Made by a program: the position numbers and the translations under genes. A DNA stretch of 64,000 bases from Acidobacteriota bacterium (GTDB lineage: Bacteria > Acidobacteriota > B3-B38 > Guanabaribacteriales > JAGGZT01). The notes beneath the pieces are model-generated. The model was not told the origin of the DNA. It searched no databases and saw only the letters and a program-made list of their open reading frames with translations. This document shows, piece after piece, positions 14,678 through 63,715 of this stretch (the stretch's first letter is position 1; each line of letters starts with the position of its first letter). The stretch is taken from assembly GCA_021161905.1 (NCBI GenBank), contig JAGGZT010000050.1, positions 1-64,000 on the forward strand, given 5' to 3'.

Positions 14678-14701
14678 CGTGAGCCTTGAACGGAGGGAGT
14701 G

Positions 14702-15721
14702 ATGAGGGGTGAAATCGGTTGGGTCTGTTCCTATACCCCGGTGGAGATCATCTCCGCTTCCGGGTTTCGCCCGGTCCGGTTGGCAACTTCCCCTCCCCTT
14801 AGAACAGTCCAGGCTGATGCCTACTTAAGAAGCAACCTTTGTCCCCTCGTTCGGGGTATTTTCGAGCTTCTGAACTCCGAGGGAGCGCCCTCATTATCTG
14901 GCGTGGTGCTTACCACCTCCTGCGATGCGATAAGGAGGCTTGCCGATGCCCTCACGCTCAGTTCGAAGCTCGATTATCTCTATATTATAGAGGTCCCTCG
15001 TGCCTCAACTGAATCTGCCTCCTCCTACTTCCGCCATCAGCTTTCCCTATTTAGAGATTCCCTTAAGCAACGATTTGGAGTGAGGATAGATGATGAAATC
15101 ATCTGGAAGGAGATAAGGGCATACAATCGGAGACGGGACACCTTGCGGTCCATCTTTCTTCGTTTGTTGGACGAGGGCAGGGGGATGGGAAGCTTCCTTT
15201 CTCTCCTCGACCGCTTTTTCGCCGGTGAGGAGGTCGAGCAGACGGAGGAGAAAGCGGTTATCGCCTCTTCTGCCAGGGATGTGGAGGCAGGACCGTCGCT
15301 TCTTCTTTCTGGAAGCAGGATCGATCAGCGGGAGCTCATCCTTCTTATTGAGGAGCTCGGAGGAAGGATATCCGCCTTGGACCTTTGCAATGGGGAGAGG
15401 GGGTTTGATTTCCGTATTCCCGAGGAGGGGGATGATCCACTCATCGCCCTCGCTTCCGGATATCTTTCTCGCCCTCCCTGCGCTCGGATGGGCGATATCA
15501 CGAGGCGGATGAGATATCTCAAGGAGCTTTCGCTGAAGAGAAAGGTGGTGGGGGTCATCTACCACACGATAAAGTTCTGCGATACCCAGGCTTACGACCT
15601 TCCCCTTATTTCCTCCGAGCTTGCTCTTCCCCTCCTCCATCTCGAGACCGATTGTAGCGGTAGTTTTTGGGGGCAGCTGAGAACGAGGATCCAGGCATTT
15701 ATCGAACTCCTTTCGGGTTGA
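14702..15721 (+). CDS. 2-hydroxyacyl-CoA dehydratase family subunit (HgdB/BcrC-like), shorter subunit
   Basis: 340 residues of the BcrC/BadD/HgdB family. The start GEIGWVCSYTPVEIISASGF is the family's typical N-terminus (CxYxPxEi region), and TTSCDAIRRLADAL and KFCDTQAYDLP carry the conserved Cys residues that bind the 4Fe-4S cluster. It ends with LLHLETDCSG...GQLRTRIQAFIELL, also conserved. Such subunits dehydrate 2-hydroxyacyl-CoA or reduce aryl-CoA by a ketyl radical mechanism after one-electron injection from the activator. ATG 14702 is preferred over GTG 14699 because it lies better behind GGAGG. No CoA transferase lies nearby, so the substrate is unknown. Confidence 0.85.
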   Translation: MRGEIGWVCSYTPVEIISASGFRPVRLATSPPLRTVQADAYLRSNLCPLVRGIFELLNSEGAPSLSGVVLTTSCDAIRRLADALTLSSKLDYLYIIEVPRASTESASSYFRHQLSLFRDSLKQRFGVRIDDEIIWKEIRAYNRRRDTLRSIFLRLLDEGRGMGSFLSLLDRFFAGEEVEQTEEKAVIASSARDVEAGPSLLLSGSRIDQRELILLIEELGGRISALDLCNGERGFDFRIPEEGDDPLIALASGYLSRPPCARMGDITRRMRYLKELSLKRKVVGVIYHTIKFCDTQAYDLPLISSELALPLLHLETDCSGSFWGQLRTRIQAFIELLSG

Positions 15722-15725
15722 GGAG

Positions 15726-16940
15726 ATGAAGATGGAGGAAGCTTTAAAGAGAGCTGGAGCAAAGACGATCTTCACCCTATACGAGATCCATCAGTGGTTG
15801 AAGATGAAGCGAGAGCCCTCCGCCTACAATGCCCTCATCCACCGCCTCATCTCCCATACGAGGAGGAGCTATAAAGGTAAAGTCCTCCTTACCGGATATC
15901 CCTTTCCTATGGAGCTCGCCCATAGCTTTGGCCTCCTCCCGATGATTGGGGAGATAGTCTCGGCGATGATAGCTTCAGCCCACCTCGAGGGATACGCCTT
16001 GAGGCTGGCGGAGAGGGAGGGGTACCTCCGGGACGGTTGTAGTTTCCATCGGGCTACCTTGGGGGCAGCACTTTCCCACTTTCTTCCAGTGCCAGCGGTG
16101 GTGGTTGCTCCTTCGATGATCTGCGATGGGGTGGGAAAGTTCTCCGAGGCGTTGGCTAAGCGGATGAGGCTACCTTACTATTTTCTCGATGTCCCTCATT
16201 CCTTATCTTCAGAGGCGGTGCATTATGTGGCGGGTGAGCTGAGGGAGATAACCACTCTTTTTGAAGAGGTTACCAAGACCAGGCTGTCAAAGGAGAAACT
16301 TCGCCGGGCGATCCTCATCTCCAATGAAACGAGGAGGCTTATGCTGAAGGTGGCGGAGCTTCGGAAGAGAAAACCCTCTCCGATGTATGGTAGATGGGCG
16401 TTCAATTTCGCCTTTATCTCCTTCCTCCTGATGGGAACGGAGGAACTCCTCGAATTATATCGAAGGCTTCTCTCCGAGTTAGAGGGGAAGCTTGCGAAAG
16501 GGGATCCTACCGAGGAGAGATATCGCATCCTCTTTCTCCTTGCTCCCCCTTATCATACGATGGAGCCTTTTCATATCCTCGAAAACCGAGGAGCCCACAC
16601 CGTTTTTGAGGAGCTCTCCTATGTCTATTGGGATGAGCTTGATCCGGATAAGCCCTTCATCTCCCTTGCTCGGAAGGTCCTTAAGAACCAGTTTTTGGGC
16701 TCGGCGGAGAGGCGGGCGGATGTGGTCAGTGAGCTTGCCTCCGAATACGATGTTGATGGTGCCATCCACTTCTCCCATTTTGGCTGTCGCCAGGGAGGGG
16801 GTGGGGTGAGGATACTTAAGGAAGCGCTCGCAAGCTTAGGGGTTCCCCTTCTCGATCTCGATGGGGATTGTGTCGATCCTTCTGGGTATTCCTCCGGGCA
16901 GGTGCGGACGAGGATTGAAGGCTTCCTCGAGATGCTATAG
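15726..16940 (+). CDS. 2-hydroxyacyl-CoA dehydratase family subunit, longer subunit
   Basis: 404 residues of the same superfamily as the previous gene and starting four bases after it. The features seen are LTGYPFPMELAHSFGLLPM (CoA-substrate side), LPYYFLDVPHSLSSEAVHYV, a Cys in HFGCRQGGGGVRIL, and the end LDGDCVDPSGYSSGQVRTR, which matches the paired-subunit ends of HgdA/HgdB-type proteins. The two subunits would form the catalytic heterodimer. Both subunits lack obvious extra domains. Confidence 0.85.
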   Translation: MKMEEALKRAGAKTIFTLYEIHQWLKMKREPSAYNALIHRLISHTRRSYKGKVLLTGYPFPMELAHSFGLLPMIGEIVSAMIASAHLEGYALRLAEREGYLRDGCSFHRATLGAALSHFLPVPAVVVAPSMICDGVGKFSEALAKRMRLPYYFLDVPHSLSSEAVHYVAGELREITTLFEEVTKTRLSKEKLRRAILISNETRRLMLKVAELRKRKPSPMYGRWAFNFAFISFLLMGTEELLELYRRLLSELEGKLAKGDPTEERYRILFLLAPPYHTMEPFHILENRGAHTVFEELSYVYWDELDPDKPFISLARKVLKNQFLGSAERRADVVSELASEYDVDGAIHFSHFGCRQGGGGVRILKEALASLGVPLLDLDGDCVDPSGYSSGQVRTRIEGFLEML

Positions 16941-31611: not shown

Positions 31612-33984
31612 TCACAATGTCTTATGTTCCGTTCGAGCGATTATCTCGTTCTGAAGGTCAGTGCCGAGATGGCAGAAGTAATCGCTGTAGCCCGCTACCC
31701 GGACGATGAGGTTGCGGTATTCCTCCGGTTTCCTTTGGGCTTCTTTTAATGTCTCCGCGCTTACTACATTGAACTGGATATGGTGTCCATCCAACTTGAA
31801 GAAAGCCCGAATGAGATGTAGCAACTTGTTGATACCCTCTTCGTCCTTTAATAGGTCGGGCATAAACTTCTGATTGAGCAGGGTTCCTCCGGTTCTCGCA
31901 TGGTCGAGTTTGGCGACCGATTTGATCACCGCGGTAGGTCCCTTTGTATCAGCACCCTGGCTGGGGGATATGCCATCGGAAAGGGGCATGCCCGCTCTTC
32001 TTCCATTGGGTGTTGCCCCCACAACTTGGCCAAAGTAGATATGGACAGTGGTGGGGAGCAGATTTACCCGATACTTTCCTCCCTTGGTGTTGGGCCTTCC
32101 GTCGAGTACCTCGAAATATGCCTCGAAGAGCTCCTTCATAATATCATCCGCGTAATCGTCGTCGTTGCCGTATTTTGGGGTTTCGTTCACCAGCCTCAGG
32201 CGGATATCCTCCTTCCCCTCGAAGTTTTTCCTTAAGGCGTCGAGTAGCTCCTCCATAGTGAAGTTCTTCTTGTCGAATATGTGATATTTGATCGCGGACA
32301 TCGAATCGGTTAAGGTGCCTACGCCAACCCCCTGGATGTAAGTGGTTCTGTATCTTGGTCCTCGGGAGTGATAGTCTTCACCCTTCTCGATGCAGTCATC
32401 GAACAGAAGCGACATAAAGGGGGCAGGCATCCGGGTAGCATAGATCCTCTCGATGATGTTGTTTCCCTTTATCTTGATGTCCACGAAGTGCTTAAGCTGT
32501 TTTTTATATGCCTCCATAACCTCGGCGAAGGTCTTGAATTTGGTGGGGTCCCCGGTAGCAAGGCCGATCTTCTTCCCCGTATTCGGATCTACCCCGTTGT
32601 TCAAGGTGATTTCGAATATCTTCACCCAGTTCATATAGCCGGTTAAGATGCAGCTTTCTTTTCCAAATGCGCTGATGGTGACACAACCGCTGGGACCGCC
32701 CGATCTTGCGTCTTCTATTGATTTTCCTGCCCGGAGGAACTCTTGGATTATCACATCGGTGTTGAATATCGATGGTTGTCCGAAGCCGGTCTTGATGATC
32801 TTAAGAGCCCTTTTAAGGAGGCTGTCTGGGTTCTTCTTGCTCAACTGAACGCAGGAGCTCGGCTGAACGAGCCTCATCTCGTCTATCACATCGAGGATGA
32901 GATAGGAGAGCTCGTTGGTGGCGTCTGAGCCATCCTTCTTCAGCCCACCGACATTTATCAGGGCAAAATCGGTGTAGGTGGCGCTCTGTTCCTCGGTTAT
33001 TCCCACCTTGGGCGGTGCTGGCTGATTGTTGAACTTTATCCAGAAGCACTCGAGGAGCTCCTTTGCCCGCTCCTTGGTCAGGGTACCCTCCGCCAACCCC
33101 CTCTTATAGAAAGGATAAAGGTGTTGATCCAACCTCCCCGGGTTGAAGGAATCCCAGGTGTTCAGCTCTATGGTTACCCCGAGATGGACGAACCAGTACA
33201 TCTGGAGCGCCTCCCAGAAATCCCTTGGAGGATGGGCGGGTACCCAGGAACAGATCTCGGCGATCCTCGTAAGCTCCTTCCTCCTTTCCGGATCGTCTTC
33301 TTTTTCTGCAAGCTCCCTCGCCTTTTCCGCATACCTCTCCGCAAACCGGATCAGCGCATCGGCAGCTATCTCCATAGCCTGAAGCTCCTGGTCCTTATCG
33401 TAGGCCAGGGGATCGTTGAAGAAGTCGAGCGCCTCCCTCGCCCTTCTTATCTCCTGTTTGAGATCGAGGAGCCCCTTCTTATATATCTTGTCGTCGAGGA
33501 TGGCATGGCCCGGTGCCCGCTGTTCCATAAACTCGGTGAACACCCCTGCTTCGAAGGCGTCGAGCCATTCTCGGGACATCGAGGAGAATATCGCCTCCCG
33601 GATGGTCTTTCCCCTCCAGAAGGGGATGATCTTCTCCTTGTACACCTTCCTCACCTCATCGCTTACGATGAACGGGGTTCTCCTTCGCGAATTGAGTATC
33701 TCGAGGTCCTCGAGACTATGGCAGCAGAGCTCGGGATAGGTGGGGGTTGCCTTTGGAGCTGGTCCTTTTTCCCCCACGATCAGTTCGCCATCGTTGATGC
33801 ATATCTCCTTGTTCTCCAAGATATATTTGAAAGCAAGAGCCCGTCTCACCGGCTCGGATAAGCGGTTGCCCATATTCTTTGCATAAAACTCCGTTATGAG
33901 TTCCGCCCTCTCTGCGGAGATGTAGGGAGCGGTGTTTACGCTTTGTTCCCGTAGTTTCTTAACCCTTTCGTTCATAGTGCTCAC
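31612..33984 (-). CDS. Glycyl radical enzyme, PFL2/HypD-like, with an altered active site (Cys434-Val-Thr436)
   Basis: 790 residues. The C-terminal radical loop RVAGYSDYF puts the radical at Gly765 and the thiyl Cys is Cys434 in GPSGCVTISAFGKE. As far as I recall the structure of Clostridioides difficile trans-4-hydroxyproline dehydratase HypD (789 aa), its pocket residues H160, D278, S334, D339, F340, C434, Y450, T645 and G765 all sit at the same numbers here. The catalytic Glu436 is Thr (codon ACC at 32677-32679, minus strand). PFL itself has a Cys-Cys pair, and eliminases such as GDH and CutC have GCVE. The enzyme is therefore a HypD-frame member with a non-standard catalytic base, and its reaction is open. 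Overlaps its activase by four bases. No proC or other obvious pathway gene is next to it. Confidence 0.9.
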   Translation of the reverse strand: MSTMNERVKKLREQSVNTAPYISAERAELITEFYAKNMGNRLSEPVRRALAFKYILENKEICINDGELIVGEKGPAPKATPTYPELCCHSLEDLEILNSRRRTPFIVSDEVRKVYKEKIIPFWRGKTIREAIFSSMSREWLDAFEAGVFTEFMEQRAPGHAILDDKIYKKGLLDLKQEIRRAREALDFFNDPLAYDKDQELQAMEIAADALIRFAERYAEKARELAEKEDDPERRKELTRIAEICSWVPAHPPRDFWEALQMYWFVHLGVTIELNTWDSFNPGRLDQHLYPFYKRGLAEGTLTKERAKELLECFWIKFNNQPAPPKVGITEEQSATYTDFALINVGGLKKDGSDATNELSYLILDVIDEMRLVQPSSCVQLSKKNPDSLLKRALKIIKTGFGQPSIFNTDVIIQEFLRAGKSIEDARSGGPSGCVTISAFGKESCILTGYMNWVKIFEITLNNGVDPNTGKKIGLATGDPTKFKTFAEVMEAYKKQLKHFVDIKIKGNNIIERIYATRMPAPFMSLLFDDCIEKGEDYHSRGPRYRTTYIQGVGVGTLTDSMSAIKYHIFDKKNFTMEELLDALRKNFEGKEDIRLRLVNETPKYGNDDDYADDIMKELFEAYFEVLDGRPNTKGGKYRVNLLPTTVHIYFGQVVGATPNGRRAGMPLSDGISPSQGADTKGPTAVIKSVAKLDHARTGGTLLNQKFMPDLLKDEEGINKLLHLIRAFFKLDGHHIQFNVVSAETLKEAQRKPEEYRNLIVRVAGYSDYFCHLGTDLQNEIIARTEHKTL

Positions 33985-34886
33985 CCTCCGACTTTTACCC
34001 TTATTCCGAATCCCCTTAACTCATCGACCACCTGGGAGATCCTCTCCTCCGATGGTGGCTGAGCCTTAAATTCTCTTCCCCGGCTTATCAACCTCCTTCC
34101 CTTTTCCACCCCTCCTTTGTGGTAGGGGAGGATGTCGATCTCCTCCACCCCCCTTAATCGGGAGACGAACTCGGCGATAGCTCTGATCTCATCTCGGTCA
34201 TCATTTATCCCGGGGATTAGCGGTATGCGGATGAAGATACGGCTACCGGCGGAAGATAGAACTTCTAAGTTCTTGAGTATCAGTTCATTATCCACGCCGG
34301 TGTAGCGTTTGTGCCTTTTTTCATTCATCAGCTTGATATCGTAGAGGAAGAGATCCGTTTTCTTAATCAGCCGTAATAACTCGTTGGTGTCGGCGTAGCC
34401 TGAGGTGTCCACCGCCGTGTGGATCCCCTTCTCCTTACAGGCGCTGAGAAGGGCGTAGAGGAATTCGGGCTGAGCAAGGGGTTCTCCTCCAGAAAAGGTT
34501 ACCCCTCCGCCAGATTCATCGTAGAAGATGATGTCCTTTTCTACCTCCTCCATCACCTCGTCTACGGTAGCCTCCTTTCCTACCATCTCTCTGGCATTTG
34601 CCGGGCATACCGAAACACAAACGCCGCAGAGCTTGCACCTTTCGGGATCAGTTGTGGGAAAGCCGTTTGAGCTCGATATCGCCTTATTAGGGCAGGCGAG
34701 GATACATCTTCCGCACCCGATACACCTCCCTCTCCAGAACATAAGCTCGGGCTCAGGTTTCTGACTTTCCGGATTGTGGCACCAGAAACAGGCAAGAGGG
34801 CATCCCTTGAGGAATACCGTCGTCCTTATGCCGGGACCATCGTGGATGGAATACCTTTTTATATCGAATATAACCCCTTTGATCAC
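33981..34886 (-). CDS. Glycyl-radical enzyme activating enzyme (radical SAM)
   Basis: 301 residues. The radical-SAM cluster motif is CPLACFWCHNPES (C-x3-C-x2-C). It is followed by a two-cluster ferredoxin insert, CIGCGRCILACP and CKLCGVCVSVCP, found in activases of GDH, CutC and HypD type but not PFL activase. It abstracts H from the glycine of its partner using SAM. Start ATG 34886 is 12 bases after the gntR stop, and the end overlaps the enzyme gene. Confidence 0.95.
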   Translation of the reverse strand: MIKGVIFDIKRYSIHDGPGIRTTVFLKGCPLACFWCHNPESQKPEPELMFWRGRCIGCGRCILACPNKAISSSNGFPTTDPERCKLCGVCVSVCPANAREMVGKEATVDEVMEEVEKDIIFYDESGGGVTFSGGEPLAQPEFLYALLSACKEKGIHTAVDTSGYADTNELLRLIKKTDLFLYDIKLMNEKRHKRYTGVDNELILKNLEVLSSAGSRIFIRIPLIPGINDDRDEIRAIAEFVSRLRGVEEIDILPYHKGGVEKGRRLISRGREFKAQPPSEERISQVVDELRGFGIRVKVGG

Positions 34887-34898
34887 CGGTCGCGCCTC

Positions 34899-35594
34899 TT
34901 AAGCCTTCTCCTTGATCTCATTCTCATAAAAGGAGTAATACCTCTTGATGAATCTCTTCTGGACCTCAAAACCCCAATGGACATCACGAAGGAACCTCGC
35001 TGCTCCCTCTCTGTCCCCTTCCTCTATCAGCCTTATCAATTCCTCATGCTCCTTTATGGAGGCTTCCTCCCACTCCCTCACATAGCCCTTCCTCCTCGGG
35101 AAGTCGTAAAGACGCTGTTTCAGTGTCATCACCCATCTTACCAGCCTCTCATTCTGGGAAAGATCGAGATAGACATTGTGGAAGGCGAGGTTCTTTTCGT
35201 AATAGAGGTCAAAGTTGTCCTTTTCGATCGCTTTTTGCATCTCGAGGTTTAGTTTCTTCATCTTCTCGATGTGGCCGGAGGAGAGCTTATCGAAGACCTC
35301 GAGCAGTACCGAGGAGGCGAGGGCTCCGATGATCTGATAAGAATCCTTTATGTCCTTGAGGGTCAGACGATTCACCAGAACCCCGCGCCGGGGGAGGATG
35401 GTTACGAAGCCCTCGGAATCGAGCTGGATCAGGGCGTCCCTCAACGGGGTTTTGCTTATGCCGAGCTCTCTGCTTAACCTGTTGAGATTTATGAAGGAGC
35501 CGGGAAGGAGGTTTCCTTTATTCATTTCGCTTCTTAGATAATCGTAGACCTGCTCCCGCAATAGCTTAAGATTGATGATTTCCTTTTTCCTCAT
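34899..35594 (-). CDS. GntR/FadR-family (FCD) transcriptional regulator
   Basis: 231 residues with an N-terminal winged helix (LREQVYDYLRSEMNKGNLLP, NRLSRELGISKTPLRDAL, GFVTILPRRGVLV) and an all-helical FCD ligand domain carrying the metal/acid-binding residues in FHNVYL and KEHEELIRLIEEGD. FCD regulators usually bind small carboxylates. As first gene of the operon with the activase and the glycyl radical enzyme, it probably regulates itself and them, with the effector near their substrate (inference). A palindrome at 35625-35649 is the likely operator. Confidence 0.9.
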   Translation of the reverse strand: MRKKEIINLKLLREQVYDYLRSEMNKGNLLPGSFINLNRLSRELGISKTPLRDALIQLDSEGFVTILPRRGVLVNRLTLKDIKDSYQIIGALASSVLLEVFDKLSSGHIEKMKKLNLEMQKAIEKDNFDLYYEKNLAFHNVYLDLSQNERLVRWVMTLKQRLYDFPRRKGYVREWEEASIKEHEELIRLIEEGDREGAARFLRDVHWGFEVQKRFIKRYYSFYENEIKEKA

Positions 35595-35624: not shown

Positions 35625-35649
35625 TATCTAATATGTAATATATCAGATA
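35625..35649. promoter_or_regulatory. 25-bp interrupted palindrome, candidate GntR operator
   Basis: The arms TATCT-x-ATAT and ATAT-x-AGATA mirror each other around a five-base centre. It overlaps the -10 box (35637-35642) of the gntR promoter, so a bound regulator would block it, which fits autoregulation. Confidence 0.6.
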
Positions 35650-35666
35650 TCAGAGGGAGGAGTCAA
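35637..35666 (-). promoter_or_regulatory. Sigma-70 promoter of the gntR-activase-glycyl radical enzyme operon
   Basis: Minus strand TTGACT (35666-35661), 18-base spacer, TATATT (35642-35637). Leader of about 35 bases to ATG 35594. Confidence 0.65.
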
Positions 35667-48880: not shown

Positions 48881-50530
48881 ATGACGAGGACGGTGAAAGC
48901 GCCAAGGGGAACAAAGCTCTCCTGTAAGGGCTGGGGCCAGGAGGCGGCGATGCGGATGTTGATGAACAACCTTGATCCTGAGGTGGCGGAGAAGCCCGAT
49001 GAACTCATCGTATATGGTGGTACGGGGAAGGCGGCTCGAAACTGGGAATGCTTCGACAAGATCGTGGAGACATTGAAGGAGCTGGAGAACGACGAGACCC
49101 TCCTTGTCCAGTCGGGAAAGCCGGTGGGTGTTTTCAAGACCCATCCTGATGCCCCTCGGGTGTTGATATCCAACGCGATGCTGGTCCCTGCCTGGGCTAC
49201 CTGGGAGAAGTTTTGGGAACTGGAACGGGCAGGGCTCATAATGTATGGCCAGATGACCGCTGGTAGTTGGATCTACATCGGCACCCAGGGAATCCTTCAA
49301 GGTACCTATGAGACCCTCGCTGCCTGTGCCAAGAAACATTTCGGCACCAGCCTGAAGGGGAAGCTGGTGGTCACTGCCGGCTTGGGAGGTATGGGCGGAG
49401 CCCAGCCCCTTGCCGTTACGATGAACGAGGGGGTGGCTTTGGTGGCTGAGGTGGACCCGGAGAGGATAAAAAGGAGGCTCGATACCGGTTATCTCGATGT
49501 TATGACCGATGATCTCGACGAGGCGATTAAGCTTGCCCTCGAGGCGAAGAAGAAGAAGGAGGCAAAATCGATAGGACTTCTTATGAACGCCGCCGACTTC
49601 CTCCCGGAGCTCGTCCGCAGGGATATCATACCCGATGTCCTCACCGACCAGACATCCGCCCACGATATCCTAAACGGCTATGTCCCTCACGGGATGGAAT
49701 ATAAGGAGGCGCTTGAACTCAGGAGAAAAAACCCCGAAGAGTACAAGAAGCGAGCGCTTTCCTCCATCGCCGTTCATATGGAGGCGATGCTCGAGCTGAA
49801 GAAGCGGGGCGCGGTCGCCTTCGATTATGGGAACAACATCAGAGGGCAGGCGATAAAGGCTGGGATCAAGGATGCCTTCGACATACCGGGCTTTGTCCCC
49901 GAATATATCAGACCCCTCTTTTGTGAAGGACGTGGTCCCTTCCGCTGGGTAGCCCTTTCCGGTGATCCCAACGACATTCGGGTGACCGATGATCTGGTTC
50001 TTGAGCTCTTCCCGGAGAACGAGATCCTCTGTCGTTGGATAAGGCTTGCCCGGGAACGGGTAAAGTTCCAGGGACTTCCCAGCCGTGTCTGCTGGCTGGG
50101 CTATGGGGAGAGGGCGCTTTTCGGCACCAGGATGAACGATCTGGTGGCAAAGGGCAAGATATCGGCGCCGATAGTGATAGGGCGTGACCATCTCGATACT
50201 GGCTCAGTCGCCTCGCCCAACCGGGAGACCGAGGGGATGAGGGATGGCTCCGATGCGATTGCCGATTGGCCCATCTTGAACGCCCTTCTCAATGCGGTGG
50301 CTGGTGCTACCTGGATCTCGGTGCATCATGGAGGTGGAGTGGGTATCGGTTACTCCATCCATGCGGGTATGGTCATCGTTGCCGAGGGGACGAAGAACGC
50401 TGAGGAGAGGCTCCAGAGGGTGCTCACTACCGATCCAGGGAGCGGTATCGTCCGCCATGCCGATGCTGGATATCCTGAGGCGATCAAAACCGCTAAAGAA
50501 AAGGGAGTGAAGATACCATTCCTCAAATGA
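48881..50530 (+). CDS. hutU: Urocanate hydratase
   Basis: 549 residues. Seen are [40 protein letters not shown], the NAD-binding [31 protein letters not shown], and the active-site region [16 protein letters not shown] with [13 protein letters not shown]. It converts urocanate to imidazolone propionate in histidine breakdown. It stands alone: no hutH, hutI or formimino-glutamate gene lies next to it. Confidence 0.97.
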
Positions 50531-60739: not shown

Positions 60740-60789
60740 GGTTCCTTTAAGGATAATGGCTTTCCTATCTAACCGAGGAGGTGAAGCTA

Positions 60790-62343
60790 ATGGGAAAATC
60801 TTTCTATTCGCGGAGGGAGTTTCTGAAGAGAGGCGCCTATGGAGGAGCGGTTCTCTTTTCTGCTCCCTGGTGGGCAAAGGGACTTCTCGATTTTATGCCG
60901 GGGGTTGAGGTGAAAAAGAGAGGACTTCCTTTCGTTGACCATTTTGGCATTCCCCCGGAGGATATCGCTAAGGTGATTGGGACTGCTTTAGCGCGGGGTG
61001 GTGACTACGCGGATGTATATTTCGAGTACCGGGTGTTCAACCTTTTCCTTCTTGAGGAGCACAAGGTGAAGACCGCATCTCAGGGAGTGAGTTTGGGTGC
61101 GGGGGTAAGGGTGATCTCCGGGGAGAAGACGGGCTATGCCTATACCGAGGAGCTTACTTTGGATAAGCTTCGTCAGGCTGCGGACACAGCTGCTCTTATC
61201 GCGAAATCTGGCGGCAAGGTGGTGAAGGTAAGCCTTATGGAGGAGAAGATACCCTCCCGCTATCAGATTATGCTTCCCCCTGCCGAGGCGGGAGTGGATG
61301 AGCGGTTATCTTTCCTTTCTCAGGCAGATAAGGTTGCCTCCGCTTACGATCCGAGGATAAAGCGGGTCATCGTTTATTATCAGGATGAACTCAGGTTTAT
61401 CGAGATAGCTACCAGTGAGGGTGCCCTTATCCGCGATACCCAGCCGATGCTTCGGTTCATCGTGAGGACGATTGCCGAAGATAAGGGAGAGCGTCGGATG
61501 GGGTTTGCCGGCAAGGGAGGGAGGTATGGACTGGAGCTCCTTAAGGTTCATACCCCGAAGGAGATCGCCCGAGAGGCAGCGGAGCTGGCGGTGAAGATGC
61601 TCGATGCCAAGGAGGCTCCTGCTGGAGAGCAGATGGTTGTGCTTGCCAACGGCGAACCCGCGGTCCTCATCCACGAGGCGGTTGGCCATGGGCTTGAGGC
61701 TGATTTCAACCGGAAGAAGACCTCTGCCTTCGCCGATAGGATTGGAGATAAGGTCGCTACTGAGCTGGTTACGATCAAGGATTCCGGTGCCTTCGAGAAC
61801 CTTCGGGGCTCGATAAACACGGACGATGAAGGGACGATACCCGGGGACACGATGCTGATCGAAAAAGGGGTTCTCAAGGGATATATGTACGATAAACTAT
61901 CCGCGAGGCTGATGCGGGCAAAGACAACAGGTAATGGAAGGCGTCAGGGTTATTCCTTCTTCCCCATTCCCCGGATGACCAATACCTATATGGCTCCTGG
62001 TAAACATTCTCCGGAGGAGATAATTTCCTCGGTGAAGAAGGGGATCTATGCCAAGAGTTTCGCTGGTGGTCAGGTGGACATTACCAATGGTAAATTTGTG
62101 TTTATGGCGGTCGAATCCTATCTCATCGAGAATGGGAAGATAACCGCCCCCCTAAAGGATGTGACCTTGATCGGAGATGGTCCTACCGTTCTTACTCGGG
62201 TGGATATGGTGGGGAACGACTTCGCCTGGGATTCTGGGATAGGAACCTGTGGTAAGGGGGGGCAGGGGGTACCCGTAGGAATGGGTATGCCCACCATCAG
62301 GATCTCCCACCTCCTGATCGGAGGCACGAGGAAGGGAGCTTAA
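60790..62343 (+). CDS. tldD: TldD-family metalloprotease with a twin-arginine signal
   Basis: 517 residues. The N-terminus SFYSRREFLKRGAYGG is a Tat signal followed by a hydrophobic stretch, unusual since E. coli TldD is cytosolic. The metalloprotease motif HEAVGHGLEADFN is at ~298, and GTCGKGGQGVPVG near the end is typical. TldD works with TldE to cleave unfolded peptides or process small modified peptides. ATG 60790 lies behind GGAGGTGA; GTG 60781 is in frame but inside that site. Confidence 0.93.
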   Translation: MGKSFYSRREFLKRGAYGGAVLFSAPWWAKGLLDFMPGVEVKKRGLPFVDHFGIPPEDIAKVIGTALARGGDYADVYFEYRVFNLFLLEEHKVKTASQGVSLGAGVRVISGEKTGYAYTEELTLDKLRQAADTAALIAKSGGKVVKVSLMEEKIPSRYQIMLPPAEAGVDERLSFLSQADKVASAYDPRIKRVIVYYQDELRFIEIATSEGALIRDTQPMLRFIVRTIAEDKGERRMGFAGKGGRYGLELLKVHTPKEIAREAAELAVKMLDAKEAPAGEQMVVLANGEPAVLIHEAVGHGLEADFNRKKTSAFADRIGDKVATELVTIKDSGAFENLRGSINTDDEGTIPGDTMLIEKGVLKGYMYDKLSARLMRAKTTGNGRRQGYSFFPIPRMTNTYMAPGKHSPEEIISSVKKGIYAKSFAGGQVDITNGKFVFMAVESYLIENGKITAPLKDVTLIGDGPTVLTRVDMVGNDFAWDSGIGTCGKGGQGVPVGMGMPTIRISHLLIGGTRKGA

Positions 62344-62365
62344 AGCGGAGTGAAGGAGGAGGAAA

Positions 62366-63715
62366 ATGAGCGAACTTAAAGAATTGGCTCAAAAGGTAGT
62401 GAAGATGGCTCAAAGGTCTGGAGCCTCTGAGGCGGAGTGCTATGCCATAGAGCGGGAGGAGTTCGAGGTAGAGGTACGACTGGGCAAGGTGGAGAACCTG
62501 AAGCAGGCGAGGAGGAGGGCGCTTAGCCTCCGGGTGATCGTTGGTAAGAAGGTAGCCATCAATTATACCTCGGACCTTTCGGAAAAAGCCCTCGCCACCT
62601 TTGCCAGGGATGCGGTGGCGATGGCGAGATATATGGAGAGGGATGAGCTCGTCTCCCTCCCCGATCCGAGCCTCTATCCCAAGAGGATCCCTGATCTATC
62701 CTTATACGATCCCAATATAGCCGAGCTCCCTCCGGCAAAGAAAATAGAGCTGGCTAAGAGATGCGAGGAGGCGGCGCTCTCTTACGATAAGAGGATCGTG
62801 AACTCCGAGGGGGGAAGCTGTAGCACCAGCATCGGCACCGTTTATCTGGTCAACTCGGCTGGATTTTCCGGGAGTTATCGGGGAAGTGTCATAAGCATCT
62901 CTGCCGCTCCGGTCGCTGAGGAGAAGGGGAAGAAGCAGGTCGATTATTGGTTCTCGGCGGTGCGTGATCTCTCCCTTCTGGAGAAGCCCGAGGTGGTGGG
63001 GAGGACCGCTGGAGAGCGGGTGGTGAGGAAGCTCAATCCGAGGAAGGTAGCCACCAAGCATGTGCCGGTGATCTTCGATCCCCTTATGGCAGCGGATTTC
63101 CTCTCGGCGATATTCTCCGCTGTGTCCGGGAGTTCGGTTTATCAGCATGCCTCCTTCCTTGCCGATCAGCTGGGGAAGAAGGTTGCTGCTTCCTCGATCA
63201 CCGTTATCGATGATCCCCTCATCCCCAAAGGGCTTGGCTCCATCCCCTTTGATGGAGAGGGGGTAGCCACCTATAAGAAGAAGGTTTTCGATAAGGGGGT
63301 ACTTGAGACCTTCCTTCACAACACCTATACCGCGAAGAAGCTTAAAGCGAAGACTACAGGGAACGCCACCAGAGGGTTGACCTCGCCACCCGGAGTGGGA
63401 TACACCAACTTCTACCTCGAAGCGGGAGATGCGGACCCTAAAGAGATGATAAAAAGCGTGAAGGAAGGGCTCTACCTCACCAGTATGTTCGGCTTCGGTG
63501 CTAACCCGGTAACCGGTGATTTCTCCCGCGGTGCCGCAGGTATCTGGATCGTGAATGGTGAGCTCGCCTATCCGGTGGAGGAGATAACCGTTGCCGGCAA
63601 TATGAAGAATATGCTTAAAGAGGTGGAGGCGGTTGGCTCCGATCTCAAGTTGACAAGGGATATCTCCGCTCCCAGCTTAAAGTTCGCCAAGCTCACCGTA
63701 GCGGGTAGCGGGTGA
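62366..63715 (+). CDS. tldE: TldE/PmbA-family protein, partner of TldD
   Basis: 449 residues without the HExxxH site, with the PmbA marks NSEGGSCSTSIGTVYLVNSA, VIFDPLMAADFLSAIFSAVSG and the Cys-free ending GNMKNMLKEVEAVGSDL. It forms the inactive half of the TldD/E dimer. It starts 22 bases after tldD and has no signal peptide, although its partner does. Confidence 0.92.
   Translation: MSELKELAQKVVKMAQRSGASEAECYAIEREEFEVEVRLGKVENLKQARRRALSLRVIVGKKVAINYTSDLSEKALATFARDAVAMARYMERDELVSLPDPSLYPKRIPDLSLYDPNIAELPPAKKIELAKRCEEAALSYDKRIVNSEGGSCSTSIGTVYLVNSAGFSGSYRGSVISISAAPVAEEKGKKQVDYWFSAVRDLSLLEKPEVVGRTAGERVVRKLNPRKVATKHVPVIFDPLMAADFLSAIFSAVSGSSVYQHASFLADQLGKKVAASSITVIDDPLIPKGLGSIPFDGEGVATYKKKVFDKGVLETFLHNTYTAKKLKAKTTGNATRGLTSPPGVGYTNFYLEAGDADPKEMIKSVKEGLYLTSMFGFGANPVTGDFSRGAAGIWIVNGELAYPVEEITVAGNMKNMLKEVEAVGSDLKLTRDISAPSLKFAKLTVAGSG

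Follow-up and report, generated by a model that had tools for sequence, protein, structure and literature searches.

The window, a stretch of 64,000 nucleotides from an Acidobacteriota bacterium, encodes a glycyl radical enzyme (GRE) of the HypD type in which Thr takes the position of Glu436, a residue that is essential in Clostridioides difficile HypD (Table 1). The gene represents a branch of HypD that is widespread and apparently undescribed. The Thr436 subtype probably still dehydrates peptide-derived 4-hydroxyproline, with His160 and Thr436 in place of Glu436.

Table 1. Features of the HypD-like locus within the window.
Feature	Position	Strand	Basis
Glycine codon 765, glycyl radical residue in RVAGY	31690..31692	minus	codon read
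HypD-like glycyl radical enzyme, Thr436 subtype	31612..33984	minus	NF043068, PF02901 and PF01228, alignment with 6vxc
Codon 436, ACC = Thr (Glu436 of the CXE motif in HypD)	32677..32679	minus	codon read; clade-wide
Codon 434, TGT = Cys, thiyl radical residue	32683..32685	minus	codon read
Radical SAM activating enzyme with ferredoxin-type clusters, overlaps the GRE start	33981..34886	minus	HypD-activase-like
GntR/FCD-family transcriptional regulator, first operon gene	34899..35594	minus	profile; position conserved in related loci
Imperfect palindrome overlapping the -10 box, 17-nt arms, 82% complementary	35627..35654		sequence
Sigma-70-like promoter, TTGACT - 18 nt - TATATT, before the FCD gene	35637..35666	minus	consensus match only

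The translation of the open frame comprises 790 residues from the GTG at 33984, with zero internal stops. A Shine-Dalgarno-like GGAGG is followed by an ATG at 33975, and the resulting protein of 787 amino acids is more likely to be the GRE product than that of the GTG start. The profile search revealed the domains PF02901 and PF01228, i.e., a full-length glycyl radical enzyme. The score against NF043068, the NCBIfam equivalog for HypD, was 1315 bits (cut-off 1100), and other members of the Thr clade scored 1199-1318 bits. By its sequence, the enzyme is placed in HypD by this automatic criterion, which is blind to residue 436. The annotation "HypD" spans two active-site types. Because the enzyme is devoid of a residue that is essential in HypD, it is described here as a Thr436 subtype beside HypD rather than as an established member. 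The best solved relative was C. difficile HypD (6vxc, 1105 bits; runner-up 572 bits), with 58% identity over the full length. The AlphaFold model (pLDDT 80.6, pTM 0.84) also had its best fold match in 6vxc (TM 0.93). The pLDDT was below 50 in the active-site loops (residues 159-163, 331-339, and 436-445), so the model confirms the fold, while the geometry of Thr436 is beyond its reach.

Counted from the GTG at 33984, the relevant residues are R156, H160, D278, K326, S334, D339, F340, C434, V435, T436, Y450, T645, and G765. All residues named in an earlier note on this DNA were thereby confirmed, including the Thr at codon 436, and the HypD numbering used there agrees with the HypD paper (PMC7077986). 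The note had also stated that the residues fall at the same numbers without a gap. The numbering indeed coincides with that of 6vxc, but only beyond a single gap of one residue near residue 39, and with a start at 33975 the statement is valid in HypD numbering only. The HypD frame, the radical machinery (Gly765 and Cys434), and the substrate-binding residues were intact, as the note had claimed. One claim had to be corrected, namely, that the enzyme has lost the usual dehydration base. For HypD, it has been proposed that Asp278 serves as base toward the amine and subsequently as acid toward the leaving hydroxyl, which would be held by Glu436, tuned by His160 (PMC7077986). Based on this paper, Glu436 as the catalytic base of HypD was rejected, and Asp278 is intact here.

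The Glu of the CXE motif, which starts with the thiyl Cys, is general in GRE eliminases, the HypD variants H160Q, D278N, D339N, S334A, F340A, C434S, and E436Q are inactive, and the variants Y450F and T645A are weak (PMC7077986). The inactivity of E436Q makes the replacement of Glu436 by Thr meaningful. The 12 published pocket and radical residues of HypD are, with the exception of position 436, invariant in the 37 rows of the Thr clade and in the readable Glu-type rows.

The 80 nearest relatives were retrieved by a scan that covered 84,980 species genomes. Among these best 80, 36 sequences fell into the Thr branch, 35 with Thr436 and one with Glu. Adding the window sequence brings the branch to 37 distinct members (L003 and L053 denote one gene), and 36 of them carry Thr436. 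The motif GGPSGCVT[IV]S[AS]FGKES was present in 36 distinct sequences. Of about thirty HypD relatives from the same phylum, one also has GCVT, in the setting GGPSGCVTISAFGKES. The members stem from Planctomycetota, Acidobacteriota/Aminicenantes, Synergistota, Bipolaricaulota, Thorarchaeota, Lokiarchaeota, Hermodarchaeota, Theionarchaea, and Bathyarchaeota; in the sampled tree the clade is commonest in Planctomycetota and Asgard archaea, and all named records are metagenome-assembled. In contrast, all 92 Glu-type rows that were readable at position 436, distant HypDs included, have Glu there (a few genomes were reached twice; of 20 extra outgroup HypDs L203 and L215 were left out, and L196 was unreadable at 436). 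A tree computed with the trait columns removed grouped the Thr type into one clade with an SH-aLRT support of 99. The clade emerges among the Glu types when the tree is rooted on other GREs, a rooting that is weakened by long branches; Glu is, however, the general residue here in GRE eliminases (PMC7077986).

The GCVT clade is thus real, and a sequencing or assembly error at 32677-32679 has a negligible probability: 35 further sequences share Thr436 together with its clade-specific surroundings, and no point in favor of an error was found. All four Thr codons are used (ACA 18, ACC 10, ACG 6, and ACT 1 in the loci counted), which indicates that the amino acid is under selection. The loss of activity in the E436Q variant of C. 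difficile HypD (PMC7077986) might suggest a catalytically dead or regulatory paralogue. This is very improbable, because Thr436 is kept with four codons in two domains of life, the radical residues and the pocket are invariant, the activase gene adjoins the GRE gene in 19 of 23 non-Asgard loci, and the enzyme is the sole one of the HypD type in its genomes. In the open-access literature searched, no description of a GCVT clade, of a reaction assigned to it, or of a HypD without the CXE Glu was found. A search for viral homologs of the GRE found none.

Ten positions separate the two types nearly perfectly (Thr type/Glu type): 161 (A/T), 162 (I/V), 331 (E/A), 333 (Q/E), 378 (C/variable), 431 (P/variable), 436 (T/E), 438 (S/G), 445 (C/Y), and 453 (W/L, M, or I). 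Eight of the ten, with position 436 itself counted among them, are at most three residues away from a pocket or radical position, while fewer than one would be expected (p = 8e-8; p = 2e-9 against variable positions only). A changed substrate would be consistent with this clustering around the pocket as well. The clade might dehydrate another isomer or analogue of hydroxyproline, i.e., a cis-4-, N-methylated, 3,4-dihydroxy, or otherwise 4-substituted proline: the amine and carboxylate site would be unchanged, while Glu436Thr, Thr161Ala, and Tyr445Cys would free space for a leaving group of different size or stereochemistry. The changes are concentrated on the side of the leaving group and next to Ser334, Glu436 is essential for hydroxyproline in C. 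difficile HypD (PMC7077986), and the GRE family is already diverse with respect to hydroxyproline isomers (8id1, 8iof, and 7vua). Nevertheless, we regard this explanation, the main alternative, as rather unlikely, since the orthologous operon partners are common to both types, no genome harbors both types although differing substrates should permit their co-occurrence, and the other readable hydroxyproline GREs retain the Glu (GCVE in 8id1 and GCIE in HplG). In a broader form, namely, a bacterial and Asgard GRE clade without the CXE Glu that either dehydrates a proline analogue in place of trans-4-hydroxy-L-proline or employs another proton relay, the proposal is likewise rather unlikely.

The only Glu in the Thr branch is found in L084 from Thorarchaeota OWC2 (gene at L084:632-2983), where codon 436 is GAG. 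Every other mark of the clade and the gene neighbors are kept, and the sequence is nested within Thr-type Thorarchaeota, which indicates an apparent reversion to Glu436. The close thorarchaeal relative L056 has Thr436. Since Glu and Thr both occur at position 436 against the same background, the chemistry may work with either residue, based on this one assembly. A role of Glu331 as a stand-in acid that co-varies with Glu436 found no support: E331 is retained in the revertant L084, and T436 in L080, the one member with V331.

The gene order in the window is FCD regulator, activase, and GRE. The activase scored 414.6 bits against the HypD-activase profile and thus below the cut-off of 425, which is also true for the Glu-type activases L052 and L063 (397 and 404 bits). 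Sigma-70-like matches occurred five times in the region versus 3.2 expected; the palindrome is possibly an operator of the FCD regulator. In the loci of relatives the core of regulator, activase, and GRE is followed by an Xaa-Pro-type M24 peptidase. In Planctomycetota the GRE gene is followed by genes for an M2/M3-like peptidase, a PutP-like sodium symporter, and the M24 peptidase. A gene for a protein of the proline-racemase superfamily that is similar to trans-3-hydroxyproline dehydratases follows in L050 and L051, and L050 additionally contains a reductase of the ornithine-cyclodeaminase family. A function as proline racemase was rejected, because the protein carries Cys and Thr (SPTGTG), the type found in trans-3-hydroxyproline dehydratases. 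An intact gene of the same superfamily (G022:C12:4723-5691) lies beside L019 (G022:C12:3975-4423), where a second Thr-type HypD gene is left as a remnant with a broken frame, closest to L051 (74%).

The identities between partners of Thr-type and Glu-type enzymes were 56-63% for the M24 peptidase, about 64% for the M2/M3-like peptidase, 62-65% for the trans-3-hydroxyproline-dehydratase-like protein, and about 49% for the ornithine-cyclodeaminase-family reductase. As judged from these values, the operon partners are orthologous between the two types, which also have the activase and the FCD regulator in common, and the predicted gene context of both is that of peptide-derived hydroxyproline. 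A Glu-type HypD was found in none of the 37 Thr-branch genomes, and the other GREs of these genomes are at most 39% identical. The shared orthologous partners and the missing second HypD point to a hydroxyproline and not to an unrelated substrate.

Dehydration of trans-4-hydroxy-L-proline would yield delta-1-pyrroline-5-carboxylate (P5C), and the genomes were searched for enzymes that consume it. Above the respective cut-offs, proC was present in 15 of 37 Thr-branch versus 11 of 43 Glu-type genomes and P5C dehydrogenase in 8 of 37 versus 5 of 43, so that 20 of 37 versus 15 of 43 genomes contain at least one of the two sinks. In several Thr-type Planctomycetota, e.g., G412:C279, G425:C287, and G410:C515, proC adjoins an aldehyde dehydrogenase gene. 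This makes P5C a plausible product of the clade. The idea that the loss of proC indicates another product was rejected as a clade trait, because many Glu-type genomes are also devoid of proC and sinks are at least as frequent with the Thr type. In the window's own genome (G000, listed as 100% complete), neither proC nor an aldehyde dehydrogenase (PF00171) was found, and its P5C would need another outlet. This genome encodes one ornithine-cyclodeaminase-family reductase and two aldehyde:ferredoxin oxidoreductases. An FAD protein, a ferredoxin, and a FAD enzyme similar to the beta subunit of sarcosine oxidase are encoded consecutively at G000:C42:9004-11480 (L160:5-2481); they resemble a multi-subunit proline/hydroxyproline dehydrogenase and are possibly a partner in proline use. 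Two tandem genes for D-components of 2-hydroxyglutaryl-CoA dehydratase (14699-16940, plus strand) and a gene for urocanate hydratase (48881-50530) in the window point to an amino-acid-fermenting host. The window also contains adjacent genes for TldD-like and PmbA-like metalloproteases (60781-63715, plus strand).

The missing usual P5C outlets of the window's genome are in line with a suggestion of the earlier note, namely, that a new reaction other than dehydration is performed on a proline-like acid. The CXE Glu, which is general in GRE eliminases, is lost, and arylacetate decarboxylase (7e7l) exemplifies a GRE that is not an eliminase and has GCVL instead of GCVE. Like the enzyme described here it is devoid of a Glu two residues past the thiyl Cys; however, it is only 31% identical, has an aromatic carboxylate as substrate, and catalyzes a decarboxylation. 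A new reaction is improbable given that Asp278, His160, and Asp339 are invariant across the clade, that P5C sinks are at least as frequent in Thr-type as in Glu-type genomes, and that the surrounding operon genes fit the use of hydroxyproline.

The preferred reading is that peptide-derived trans-4-hydroxy-L-proline is most likely the substrate and would be converted to P5C. Asp278, Asp339, Phe340, Ser334, Tyr450, and Thr645, i.e., the amine and carboxylate site, are present. The adjacent radical SAM activase would generate the radical at Gly765, and Cys434 would take the C5 hydrogen. As proposed for HypD, Asp278 would deprotonate the amine and later protonate the leaving C4 hydroxyl. Instead of by Glu436, this hydroxyl may be held by His160 and the hydroxyl of Thr436, or by a water fixed by both, an arrangement that the remodelled residues Ala161, Glu331, Gln333, Ser438, Cys445, and Trp453 might enable. 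As E436Q is dead in C. difficile HypD, this compensation in the Thr436 type is an assumption.

C. difficile HypD (6vxc and 6vxe) is similar in the radical residues, the amine and carboxylate site, the adjacent activase, and the operons, but has the essential Glu436 at the position of Thr, and the clade differs from it at nine further positions around the pocket (161, 162, 331, 333, 378, 431, 438, 445, and 453). HplG, the hydroxyproline C-N lyase (7vua), is also a GRE that acts on a hydroxyproline and has the same fold (TM 0.90). However, it is 32% identical, cleaves a C-N bond, and keeps the CXE Glu, and an HplG-type identity was rejected based on the motif (GCVT versus GCIE). The entries 8id1 and 8iof, by their titles dehydratases of N-methyl-cis-4-hydroxy-L- and D-proline, are GRE dehydratases of hydroxyproline analogues, but they are about 33% identical, and 8id1 retains GCVE. 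In aminoacyl radical enzymes the radical Gly is replaced by Ala, Ser, or Thr (PMC11528403); the presence of Gly765 excludes this identity.

A natural and conserved HypD branch without Glu436, together with one Glu revertant, represents a ready test of the role of this residue. If the clade used a proline analogue or another proton relay, an undescribed step in the anaerobic degradation of proline-rich material of sediments would be performed by enzymes that are now automatically filed as HypD. The use of hydroxyproline via GREs in Planctomycetota and Asgard archaea appears to be little described. In the Asgard loci L056, L060, L076, L079, L081, L086, and L108 the HypD-like gene has no adjacent activase gene. 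In these loci, which belong to Thorarchaeota and Lokiarchaeota, it is located between genes for an archease and a putative RNA methyltransferase on one side and the rpl3-rpl4-rpl23-rpl2 operon on the other, a ribosomal gene neighborhood of a catabolic radical enzyme that is conserved across Asgard lineages.
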